36,444 bases of DNA from Myxococcales bacterium (lineage in GTDB: Bacteria > Myxococcota_A > Polyangia > Haliangiales > Haliangiaceae): the NCBI GenBank assembly GCA_016794525.1, contig JAEUJY010000147.1, forward strand, positions 1-36,444. Reading direction: 5' to 3'. Positions 1,715 through 6,764 of this stretch are shown one piece after another. Positions within the stretch are counted from its first letter, which is position 1. Each line of letters starts with the position of its first letter. The notes below the pieces were generated by a model. It did no database searches. It saw only the letters and a list, made by a program, of their open reading frames with translations, and was not told the origin of the DNA. The position numbers were made by a program, and so were the translations under genes.

Positions 1715-2770
1715 CTACCCCGGCTGGTCGTTCAGCGCGCGATCGATCTTGAGCTTGATGTCGACGTAGCGCCGCAGGAAGTCGTAGTTCTTCTCGCGGA
1801 AGTTCTGGGTGTAGCGGCGCTCGCGGGTCTTCGCGCGGAACGCCTCGGCCAGCTCGTCGAGCCGGTTGGCCAGCTCGGCGGCGTCGGTGAACGGCACGAC
1901 GATCGGCCGCTGCCCGCCGACCTCGACGAGGTTGACGTAACCGCCGGGGCCGGGCCCGCGGAACGTCAACGGCACGGTCTCGGGGCTCTGGCTGCGCACG
2001 GTCTGGACCACCATCGACGCCGGCAGATCCGACAGCTCGTCAGAGATCAGCGCGTAGTGGAACTTGTCGCTCGAGATACGATCGAGCGCCTCGCCGCCGC
2101 TCATCGCGTGCAGGAAGCGGAAGCCGGGCACGCCGGCGCCGTTGAGCTCGTCGACCAGCGAGTCGACCTCGTCGACCACCAGCACGCTGAACGCGTCGAG
2201 CTCGAGCGAGCGTCCCGGGTCCTTGCCGGCCAGGCGATCGCTGGCGTCGAGCGCGCGGCGCTCGGCCTCCATGAACCGCTGCAGGAACTCCTCGTGGACG
2301 GCGCGCACGTCGACCAGCACGGTGTCGACCTCGCGCCGCCCGACCGAACGGCTGGCGGCGTCGAGCACGCGGTCCTTGAGGTACGCGACCGACTCGGGCG
2401 ACTTGAGGATCAGGTCGACGGCGCCGGCGCGGATCGCCGCGACCGCGTCGTCGAACGACCGCCGCGGGGTCAGCCCGATGATCATCGAGGTCGGCGACGC
2501 GGTGCGCACCGCCCGGATGATGTCGAGCCCGGCGCCGGCGCTCGGGGTGTCGAGATCGATGAGGACCACCGAGTAGAAGTGCCGGCCGAGCTCGGCCAGG
2601 CCGGCGTCGGGCTCCTTGACGCACGTGACGTGCAAGCTGGCCGCGGTCAGCAACTCGGCGATGCCGGCGTGGATGCGCACGTCGGAGTCGATGACCAGCA
2701 CCTGGGCACCGACCAGATCGCGCGTCGGCGTGGCCGACCGCGAGCCCGACATGTCGCGCAGCGTCGTCAT
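1715..2770 (-). CDS. Two-receiver-domain response regulator-like protein
   Basis: The 351-residue product has a complete receiver (REC) domain at about residues 22-140: acidic pair in VLVIDSD, phospho-acceptor Asp72 in LIDLDTP (Asp+4 is Pro), conserved Thr in IIGLTP and Lys123 in LILKSPE. A linker follows. A second receiver-like domain at about 192-300 keeps VLVVDEVDS and an Asp in ALISDELSD but lacks a clear conserved Lys. The C-terminus (about 310-351) is helical, charged and Tyr-rich (RRYTQNFREKNYDFLRRY). There is no DNA-binding or enzymatic output domain, so it probably acts by protein contact, as in CheY-like or gliding/pilus regulators. The ATG at 2770 overlaps the stop of the upstream zinc-ribbon gene in an ATGA, indicating translational coupling. 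A longer frame toward 3724 is only a shadow of that gene. Confidence 0.85.
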   Translation of the reverse strand: MTTLRDMSGSRSATPTRDLVGAQVLVIDSDVRIHAGIAELLTAASLHVTCVKEPDAGLAELGRHFYSVVLIDLDTPSAGAGLDIIRAVRTASPTSMIIGLTPRRSFDDAVAAIRAGAVDLILKSPESVAYLKDRVLDAASRSVGRREVDTVLVDVRAVHEEFLQRFMEAERRALDASDRLAGKDPGRSLELDAFSVLVVDEVDSLVDELNGAGVPGFRFLHAMSGGEALDRISSDKFHYALISDELSDLPASMVVQTVRSQSPETVPLTFRGPGPGGYVNLVEVGGQRPIVVPFTDAAELANRLDELAEAFRAKTRERRYTQNFREKNYDFLRRYVDIKLKIDRALNDQPG

Positions 2771-5041: not shown

Positions 5042-6764
5042 GTCCGCCCTGGCGGTGGTCGCGACCCTCGTCGCGCTGATCGCGCTGGCCTGGCCCGGCG
5101 TGGCCCACGCGCGCAAGCGCCTCGTGGTGCTCGAGTTCACCGGCCCCAAGGCCGAGGAGTTCCAGGCCGACCTCGAGAAGATCCTCAAGAAGCGGCACTC
5201 GCTGGTGCCCCAGGCCAAGTGGGACGCGGCGGCCGACGATCTGGGCGCCACCAAGCTCACCGACGCCAACGTCAAGCGCATCGCCGGCAAGCTCAACGTC
5301 GACGGCGTGATCGTCGGCAAGAGCGAGAAGCGCGGCTCGCGCTACTACCTGCACCTCAAGCTGCGCGCGGGCGCGTCGGGCAAGGTGCTGGCCGAGCCCG
5401 AGGTGATCGAGCGCTCGGGGGGCCTGGGCCCCGACGGTCGCGACACCATCGACGAGTCGCTGCTGCCGGTGATCGACGACCTCCCGCGCCTCGGCGGCGG
5501 CGACGACGACGATGACGCGGACGATGACGCCGACGCGGACGACGACGACGACCGCGGCAGCCGCGGCAAGGGCAAGGGCAAGCCCACCGGCAAGGGCAAG
5601 GGCAAGCTCGCGGACGACGACGACGACGATGACGGGGACGACCGCCCGGGCTGGGGCCGCGGCCGCGACGACGACGACGATGATGGCGACGCCGACGCGG
5701 ACGACGACGACCGGGGCAGCCGCGGCAAGGGCAAGGGCAAGCCCACTGGCAAGGGCAAGGGCAAGCCGGCCGACGACGATGACGACGACGATGACGACGA
5801 CGACCGCAGCGCCGGCCGCGGCCGCGACCGCGACCGCGATGACGATGACGACGCCGGCGATGACGGCGACGACGACCGGGTCGCCGATCGCGACGACCGG
5901 GATGACGGCGACGACCGCGACGACCGGGACGACGATGACGACGACGACGACGACCGCGATCGCGGGCGCGGCCGGGACCGCGACGACGGCCCCGCCGATC
6001 CGCGCCCGGCGATGGACCTGTCGGCCGGCCTGTCGTTCACCGGCCGCAAGCTCGGCTTCACGACGAACCTGGTGCAGAACGCGCCCCAGGGCTACAGCGG
6101 CGCCCCGGTGCCGGGGCTGCGCATCACCGGCGACGTGTTCCCGCTGGCCTTCAACAAGAAGAACCGCTCGTTCACGCGCAACCTCGGCGTGACCGGCCTG
6201 TTCGACCGCGCGATCAAGATCTCGTCGGAGCTCAAGACCGCGGCGATGACCTACACGCTGCCGACGGTCGAGCAGCACCTGGCGTTCGGCGTCATCTACC
6301 GCCACCCGGTGTCGCCGACGCTGACCATCGAGGGCTCGGTCCGCTACAACAAGCGCAAGTTCGTGATCAACAAGTCGAGCGCCCCGATGGACGCGGTCGA
6401 CATCCCCAACACCGATTACTCGTACGTCGACCCGGGCGTCGGCGTGCACTACGTGCTCGGGCCCAAGGCCGCGCTGTCGGCCGACGCGCGGTTCTTGCTC
6501 ATCACCGACACCGGCGAGATGCAGTCGCCGGATCAGTACGGTGCGTCGACGGTGACCGGCGTCGACCTGGCGCTCGCGGTCGACTACCTGGTCGCGCCGA
6601 AGATCGTCGTGCGCGCCGCCCTCGGGCTGGCGACGATCGGCTACGCGTTCAAGGGGAATGGCGCGCTGACCAACAATCGGGATGGGCAGCCGGCGTCCGT
6701 GGACGTGTCGGGAGCGCGGGATACGTACTACGGCGGGTCGGCGGGCGCGGCGTATCTGTTCTAG
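5007..6764 (+). CDS. Secreted Asp-rich, barrel-like outer-membrane protein
   Basis: The 585-residue product starts at an ATG inside the end of pilT, preceded by GGAGGA within the pilT coding sequence. It has a signal peptide (hydrophobic core about residues 15-31, probable cut after AHA near residue 35). Residues 36-150 form a small alpha/beta domain (KRLVVLEFTG, VDGVIVGKSEKRGSRYYLHLKL) recalling TolB/CsgG-like lipoprotein N-domains. Residues about 158-332 are a polyampholyte of Asp runs alternating with Gly-Lys/Arg-Gly blocks, including two tandem copies of a roughly 53-residue unit starting at residues 183 and 236 (RGSRGKGKGKPTGKGKGK). Residues 340-585 alternate polar and aromatic strands and end in AAYLF, a typical beta-barrel end. 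The Asp runs could bind Ca2+ or surface polysaccharide. The link to pilT suggests a pilus- or surface-related role (inference). Confidence 0.8.
   Translation: MKSSRSIASASRSALAVVATLVALIALAWPGVAHARKRLVVLEFTGPKAEEFQADLEKILKKRHSLVPQAKWDAAADDLGATKLTDANVKRIAGKLNVDGVIVGKSEKRGSRYYLHLKLRAGASGKVLAEPEVIERSGGLGPDGRDTIDESLLPVIDDLPRLGGGDDDDDADDDADADDDDDRGSRGKGKGKPTGKGKGKLADDDDDDDGDDRPGWGRGRDDDDDDGDADADDDDRGSRGKGKGKPTGKGKGKPADDDDDDDDDDDRSAGRGRDRDRDDDDDAGDDGDDDRVADRDDRDDGDDRDDRDDDDDDDDDRDRGRGRDRDDGPADPRPAMDLSAGLSFTGRKLGFTTNLVQNAPQGYSGAPVPGLRITGDVFPLAFNKKNRSFTRNLGVTGLFDRAIKISSELKTAAMTYTLPTVEQHLAFGVIYRHPVSPTLTIEGSVRYNKRKFVINKSSAPMDAVDIPNTDYSYVDPGVGVHYVLGPKAALSADARFLLITDTGEMQSPDQYGASTVTGVDLALAVDYLVAPKIVVRAALGLATIGYAFKGNGALTNNRDGQPASVDVSGARDTYYGGSAGAAYLF
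5553..5990 (+). repeat. Coding low-complexity GAC/GGCAAG repeats
   Basis: Runs of GAC/GAT codons (Asp) alternate with (GGCAAG)n blocks (Gly-Lys). A 159-bp unit starting at 5553 recurs at 5712 with few changes. The repeats stay in phase with the reading frame, so they are protein-level repeats that could vary in copy number without a frameshift. Confidence 0.85.

Follow-up and report, generated by a model that had tools for sequence, protein, structure and literature searches.

A conserved double-receiver, zinc-ribbon and predicted outer-membrane barrel neighbourhood beside a recA/alaS-linked PilT ATPase in Myxococcota

How cytoplasmic signals reach machines of the outer membrane is, to our knowledge, an open question, and we know of no agreed job for the PilT paralogues that are encoded outside pil clusters. 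Both questions are raised by a four-gene block on contig JAEUJY010000147.1 (C70) of a Myxococcales bacterium (assembly GCA_016794525.1; 9.8 Mb in 177 contigs), whose nearest named relatives, judged by PilT, include metagenome-assembled genomes (MAGs) of Kofleriaceae. The window, meaning the whole stretch of DNA analysed, is the entire 36,444-base contig. Its reverse strand encodes a double-receiver protein without an output domain (positions 1715 to 2770, 351 amino acids) and, overlapping it, a 337-residue protein composed of a zinc ribbon, a single helix, a Gly-rich linker and an AgmX/TonB-like C-terminal domain (2767 to 3780). Across a divergent intergenic region of 106 bp (3781 to 3886), the forward strand encodes a PilT-family ATPase of the recA/recX/alaS-linked (PilT1) type (3887 to 5041, 384 amino acids) and a secreted protein of 585 residues with a TolB-N-like domain, an acidic linker and a predicted barrel (5007 to 6764). 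A codon-bias gene caller recovered all four genes at the expected coordinates, with a GTG start later than 5007 picked for the barrel gene. We tentatively propose that they encode a conserved, phosphorylation-controlled trans-envelope module in which the PilT1-type ATPase is a second, dispensable output.

The neighbourhood is real and conserved, and it is assembled from known kinds of parts. Among 56 relatives, a set weighted towards the window's own family, 43 have a match to the receiver protein at E<=1e-25 (counted by hand), and at E<=1e-30 the receiver profile matched at least 37 of 377 genomes of the phylum, 27 of them in the window's class. The phylum counts are lower bounds because few candidates were scored per genome (five for the receiver, four for the barrel). 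We assessed 54 receiver loci, from 52 genomes (window included) and two named MAG contigs, with gene starts predicted by the codon-bias caller. Six of them end too near the receiver gene to be scored, five of these showing a zinc-ribbon-type tail domain at the edge. The 48 scorable loci comprise 24 with both the zinc-ribbon gene and a divergent PilT, 9 with the zinc ribbon only, 9 with PilT only and 6 with neither; thus the zinc-ribbon gene lies directly upstream of the receiver gene in 33/48, a divergent PilT is found in 33/48, and at least one partner in 42/48, which is more than chance would give. These counts include a PilT outside the fetched stretch, located by way of genome-wide receiver and PilT matches (G023), a PilT fragment at a contig edge (G016) and a degenerate PilT (G045). 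They leave out G014, where the receiver gene is split in two matches, G041, with partial matches, the G030 paralogue (L104) and nine receiver relatives of another class. No match over most of the receiver protein was obtained in M. xanthus AM003 or Archangium violaceum Cb vi76, where the best partial matches scored 75 and 75.5 bits (150 candidates each).

Seven families (f1, f2, f3, f4, f7, f9 and f15) have divergent receiver/PilT pairs, and in four of these (f1, f2, f3 and f15) the four genes are found as a complete set. The neighbours are therefore conserved together in relatives, the point on which the initial annotation had staked its idea of a regulated envelope machine; it was also right that this is not a standard pil or glt gene order, and its four genes with their coordinates, the output-less two-receiver protein and the 35-bp overlap were all borne out by the sequence, by Pfam and NCBIfam and by structural models. 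The coupling is tight in the window, where the zinc-ribbon stop and the receiver start overlap by 4 bp (ATGA) and pilT and the barrel gene by exactly 35 bp. A start codon at the matching offset was seen in 13 of the 24 loci examined, all 13 from the window's own family. We found no description of the block in the open-licence PubMed Central literature searched, a partial sample that does not imply unpublished status.

The receiver protein carries a single Response_reg domain according to Pfam (residues 24 to 124, 50.8 bits, cut-off 30.2), while the second receiver is visible only in an AlphaFold2 model (nine sequences; mean predicted local distance difference test score, pLDDT, 83) and in a Foldseek alignment with PleD. 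In the model, receiver 1 leads into a helix (125 to 180); receiver 2 comes next, and the tail is helical. PleD structures were the first ten Foldseek matches (E 2.2e-10), in an alignment that covers most of the protein; its overall template modelling score is low (0.31) because the two receivers are differently placed. Receiver 1 (residues 23 to 124; 2399 to 2704, reverse strand) is phosphorylatable by sequence, with D28/D30, D72, T101 and K123, and these residues are largely kept across 18 orthologues (D72 in 18, K123 in 17, D28 and D30 in 16 each, T or S at 101 in 15). Receiver 2 (residues 194 to 291; 1898 to 2191, reverse strand), with its fold taken from the model, is degenerate: position 243, at the end of strand 3, which was taken as the equivalent of the phospho-Asp, is Asp in none of the 18. 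The tandem receivers of PleD share this arrangement, the first being phosphorylatable and the second degenerate. Unlike PleD, the block's protein has no GGDEF domain, only helices without a further Pfam domain following receiver 2, so that it is a response regulator by its receiver domain and phosphorylation residues and not a PleD-type diguanylate cyclase.

The protein encoded directly upstream starts with a zinc ribbon (residues 2 to 24; 3709 to 3777, reverse strand; PF13240, Zn_Ribbon_1, 28.7 bits, cut-off 25) that is presumably cytoplasmic. Sequence reading places a single hydrophobic helix at residues 71 to 90 (3511 to 3570, reverse strand), the top 19-residue hydropathy of the reading frame being 2.48, and the protein ends with an AgmX/PglI C-terminal (TonB-like) domain (2812 to 3024, reverse strand; NF033768) that passes barely, with 41.1 bits against a cut-off of 40, while two homologues pass clearly with 51.0 and 51.6. 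Single helix, AgmX/PglI C-terminal domain and zinc ribbon are shared with the GltJ/AgmX and GltG proteins of Myxococcus, the zinc ribbon being present in GltJ. Calling the protein GltJ-like therefore holds for the layout and fails for family membership, since it reaches 27.1 bits on the GltJ model (NF033761) against a cut-off of 450 and has half the length (337 residues versus 671 model positions). A Glt-like gliding complex with this protein as a substitute for GltJ would account for the layout, and in one receiver-linked locus a MotA/TolQ/ExbB gene and two ExbD genes lie beyond pilT (L124:11317-13136). We nevertheless consider such a complex highly improbable, given that no glt genes were recognised beside the zinc-ribbon gene, that GltJ was over cut-off in none of the 56 relatives searched and that the six window proteins scanned contain no motor or TPR domain.

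The secreted protein has no domain over cut-off in Pfam or NCBIfam. Its model (mean pLDDT 67) shows an alpha/beta domain and an acidic linker of low confidence, followed by eleven strand elements, read as ten strands with one interrupted. VIA-align superposed residues 36 to 158 (5112 to 5480, forward strand) on TolB and LpoB chains with Z of 10.2-11.1 and a root-mean-square deviation (rmsd) of 2.5-3.2 over 104-114 residues, suggesting a TolB-N/LpoB-like domain. The Asp-rich linker (residues 164 to 330; 5496 to 5996, forward strand), with low-complexity repeats and pLDDT below 50, is probably disordered. The predicted 10-strand beta-barrel domain (6012 to 6758, forward strand), in a protein whose last residue is Phe, aligned with OmpT (Z 20.0, rmsd 3.9, 235 residues) and OpcA (Z 18.7, rmsd 3.2, 210 residues), and the protein is predicted to be an outer-membrane beta-barrel. 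Omptins have a conserved catalytic Asp/His set; among 12 aligned barrel proteins no His fell in a column that is invariant or nearly so, and therefore omptin catalysis is not expected. Nor is the protein a TolB, which is made of an N-terminal domain and a beta-propeller: here the N-domain fold matches (Z about 11) but a barrel stands in place of the propeller. The arrangement recalls Tol-Pal, in that an inner-membrane arm with a TonB/TolA-type tail (TolA) lies opposite a TolB-N-like domain (TolB), whereas the block's version is linked to a predicted barrel of its own and no TolQR was found among the scanned neighbours. The barrel is not exclusive to the block, relatives at E<=1e-12 being found in at least 85 of the 377 genomes together with further copies in the window's genome. 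As a separate observation, five loci with a receiver/zinc-ribbon pair and no PilT (L198, L199, L202, L203 and L204) also encode, close by, short secreted proteins of barrel-like appearance by eye; those of L198, L202 and L204 had no Pfam or NCBIfam match.

The fourth protein belongs to the PilT/PilU ATPase family (TIGR01420, pilT_fam; 453.7 bits, cut-off 319.1) and has intact Walker A (GVTGSGKST) and Walker B (VGEMRD) motifs. It is not a canonical pil-cluster PilT: the AIRNLIRE motif, which is important for retraction, is replaced by ERVREMIEDPMR, and the pilB-linked PilT of the genome sits on another contig (C158). The same motif is missing from all aligned block, alaS-linked and recA-linked PilTs and kept in the two pilB-linked copies. 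In a quick tree with long branches and 12 of 44 forks open, a split with 96% support in the Shimodaira-Hasegawa-like approximate likelihood-ratio test places these two copies with four other paralogues on one side and the PilTs of the block and those linked to alaS or recA on the other, where the order is poorly resolved. This separation, together with alaS downstream in the window (8422 to 11088, forward strand, named by sequence reading), makes the protein a recA/alaS-linked PilT1 type; alaS itself serves as a syntenic anchor of the PilT1 neighbourhood and stands outside the proposed machine. PilT homologues scattered outside pil clusters are also part of the myxobacterial type IVa pilus repertoire (PMC6060248), and in the sections of that source available to us the block is not mentioned.

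Of at least 588 named PilT loci, the best 80 include 56 with alaS near PilT (hand count), often with recA- or recX-like genes, and such loci span Geobacteraceae, Nitrospirae, Acidobacteria and others. In Geomonas the order is recA-PilT-recX-alaS (L160; recA and recX named by sequence reading), and Geobacteraceae PilT relatives in our set also lack AIRNLIRE and have alaS nearby. The available part of one report describes the Geobacter pilT1 arrangement as recA-pilT1-recX, co-transcribed with recA (PMC5065972). Geobacter PilT1 (GSU0146) and the block's protein share the PilT family and intact Walker motifs; in the block, divergent receiver and zinc-ribbon genes and a barrel gene replace recA and recX. 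The surroundings of the PilT1 counterpart in M. xanthus include a recX-like gene and two ribosomal-protein-like genes; neither a receiver nor a barrel match was obtained there in 17 kb. Because the pilT1-alaS pair is old and is found elsewhere with recA and recX, the block appears to have been built around that pair, the receiver and zinc-ribbon genes occupying the place of recA, and the barrel gene that of recX, relative to recA-PilT-recX-alaS loci. A recA-PilT-barrel-like order was found in L141 and L142, where the barrel match is weak (28 and 30 bits), and in L188 (95 bits); L141 and L142 also contain PilZ-like proteins that score under the curated cut-offs.

This ancestry bears on what PilT is doing in the block. 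It could be a relic of the ancient recA-pilT-recX-alaS cluster beside which the receiver/zinc-ribbon pair simply settled, so that only receiver and zinc ribbon cooperate; the frequency of alaS near PilT in those best 80 loci and the 9/48 scorable loci with zinc-ribbon/receiver pairs lacking PilT (families f6, f16, f17 and f19) are what such a relic would leave. This is the main rival explanation, hard to exclude by gene order alone, and we judge it somewhat unlikely: divergent receiver/PilT pairs persist without the zinc ribbon in another 9/48, from four labelled families (f1, f4, f7 and f9) and two MAG contigs, which indicates that the receiver-PilT link outlasts the supposed partner, and in the window's family pilT and the barrel gene overlap. 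The recA linkage also invites a role in DNA uptake and recombination, in which PilT1 would retract a DNA-uptake pilus and the barrel would assist at the outer membrane. The authors who reported co-transcription of Geobacter pilT1 with recA proposed it as a traffic ATPase for DNA uptake (PMC5065972), and the recA-PilT-barrel-like loci, two of them weak, fit this idea. With no DNA-uptake domain in the six window proteins scanned and no obvious role for the receiver and zinc-ribbon proteins, we hold it to be very unlikely.

A C-terminal FxI[DE]RF-like peptide of PilT was considered as a receiver-specific docking site and rejected: counting identical tails once, 15 of 26 PilTs with a receiver gene nearby have it, but so do 30 of the 76 PilTs, that of M. 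xanthus among them, whose fetched stretch shows no receiver gene. Some of the stretches in this second group end before the receiver gene, which makes their label uncertain. More broadly, an FxI[DE][RK][FY]-like C-terminal peptide after a variable linker is frequent in PilT1-type proteins (window, L117-L196) and is not tied to a receiver gene.

The presence of pilus genes in the 56 relatives hints at two parts of the block. PilQ was over cut-off in 47 and PilB in 38; both were below it in six genomes (G018, G027, G033, G044, G045 and G052). PilT1 and a clear orthologue of the receiver are both missing from two of the six, G027 and G033, and the receiver protein is kept in the other four. G044 and G052, which belong to the same genus, retain receiver, ribbon and barrel with no match to the PilT family at E<=1e-50, which indicates that PilT is not obligatory for that part. 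In G045, the receiver gene is kept, ribbon and barrel genes are missing from the block, and the only PilT-family match is a degenerate block copy (223.9 bits against the cut-off of 319.1) that has lost Walker B; the block PilT at L091:6675-7706, from a genome without PilQ or PilB over cut-off, keeps Walker A and has lost Walker B and the C-terminal motifs. A PilT1-type match of at least 62% identity is present in 36 relatives (window's genome included); in 35 of these PilQ or PilB also passes its cut-off, and only G018 departs from this. Since G044 and G052 are one genus, G045 is separate and G018 shows the opposite, loss of PilT1 with pilus loss and a kept receiver amounts to two independent cases at most, with one draft against, and the two-part reading rests on few cases.

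The association with pili could also point to a strict regulator of pilus retraction, with the receiver gating PilT-driven retraction and the barrel and zinc-ribbon proteins tying the pilus base to the outer membrane. Intact Walker motifs and the 35/36 relatives with PilQ or PilB are in line with it, as is a precedent from Synechocystis, where a phosphomimic form of the receiver protein Rre6 binds the PilT paralogue PilT2 in a two-hybrid assay (PMC7656254). Rre6 differs from the block's protein: it comes from a cyanobacterium, has 388 residues and combines a receiver with a long N-terminal extension, and no envelope partners are described in the available part of that source (PMC7656254). We find a retraction regulator unlikely: AIRNLIRE is absent from the block and its alaS- and recA-linked kin, a separate pilB-pilT-pilC-like cluster is present elsewhere in the same genome (pilC named by sequence reading), and Geobacter PilT1 is not one of the two homologues reported to rescue a P. 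aeruginosa pilT mutant, PilT3 and PilT4 restoring twitching and PilT3 alone correcting hyperpiliation (PMC5065972). The suggestion in the initial annotation of a machine that links pilus retraction to an outer-membrane partner is thus supported only in part, its retraction component being doubtful.

For the trans-envelope module that we tentatively favour, the genes, domains, conserved linkages and dissociable losses are those observed above, and we infer all contacts between the proteins, the direction in which the signal runs and any movement. Phosphorylation of receiver 1 would come from a histidine kinase that is encoded elsewhere. The signal may then pass along helix 125-180 and through the degenerate receiver 2, and so reach the inner-membrane protein at its zinc-ribbon head in the cytoplasm. 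The TonB/TolA-like tail would span the periplasm and dock on the TolB-N-like domain of the outer-membrane barrel, in the way that the TolA C-terminal domain is reported to bind the TolB N-terminus by strand augmentation (PMC8928145), and docking could anchor or release the barrel. The PilT1-type ATPase would be a second output acting via the type IV pilus machine and dispensable for the rest. The linkage of zinc ribbon, receiver and PilT, the gene overlaps and the retention of the receiver 1 residues beside their loss in receiver 2 support the module, and so does the way PilT1 tracks pili among receiver-bearing genomes without PilQ and PilB (absent from G044 and G052, degenerate in G045). PleD as the best Foldseek match, the pairing of an AgmX/TonB-like tail with a TolB-N-like domain on a barrel, and the Rre6-PilT2 precedent also speak for it. 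A more specific version is a new kind of phosphorylation-switched coupling across the envelope. In it, the double receiver would control a TolA/TonB-like arm with a zinc ribbon, and this arm would grip a TolB-like barrel that provides its own anchor; type IV pili would play no part in this, and several lineages would have added control of the ancient recA-type PilT ATPase as a pilus-linked output. In this full form we regard it as rather unlikely.

Several observations weigh against the module. PilT-alaS adjacency is far older than the block, and PilT may therefore be a bystander. The barrel lies beside receiver and zinc ribbon without PilT in family f6 only, and since barrel paralogues are encoded outside the block in the window's genome, away from any receiver gene (G000:C91:61687-63147 and G000:C135:26418-28046), the barrel may not be a specific partner. 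Nine PilT-linked loci have no upstream zinc-ribbon gene and six receiver loci have neither partner, and no PilT or zinc-ribbon-tail profile match was found near the receiver in G041 or in any of the nine relatives of another class that were fetched, of ten found. Pfam revealed no kinase or proton-motor domain among the six scanned proteins of the window. G018, a 93%-complete draft, has PilQ and PilB under cut-off, yet an intact block PilT1 and other PilTs, and four genomes with PilQ (G036, G038, G049 and G055) have no PilT1 match at E<=1e-100, so that PilT1 loss does not need pilus loss; on these five genomes, an invariable joint loss of PilT1 and pili was rejected.

Around the block, the barrel gene is followed by a trypsin-like gene, an opposite-strand gene and then alaS, and in several loci alaS and then a PilZ-type protein lie beyond the barrel gene (89.8 bits on TIGR02266 for the L080 copy, against 68.7). 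A secreted lipoprotein-like gene, by sequence reading, is convergent with the receiver gene (692 to 1708), and a 30%-identical protein adjoins the receiver gene in L082. Positions 148 to 586 hold an array of about 17 copies with a 26-bp period, the repeat being centred on TCCCACGTGGGATC; this pattern has 69 exact matches in the genome versus 0 for the reversed pattern, and 62 of the 69 are in the window array and in similar arrays on contigs C24, C63, C113 and C166. The window contains no tRNAs and no Rfam families at gathering score.

In conclusion, a neighbourhood in which a phospho-switch and a TonB-like arm are encoded together with a TolB-like barrel and an ATPase of the PilT1 type offers concrete pairs of proteins to examine, and its natural losses hint at one pilus-dependent and one pilus-independent part. 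Recurring as it does in several myxobacteria-related families, it may represent an undescribed connection through the cell envelope that can be switched.

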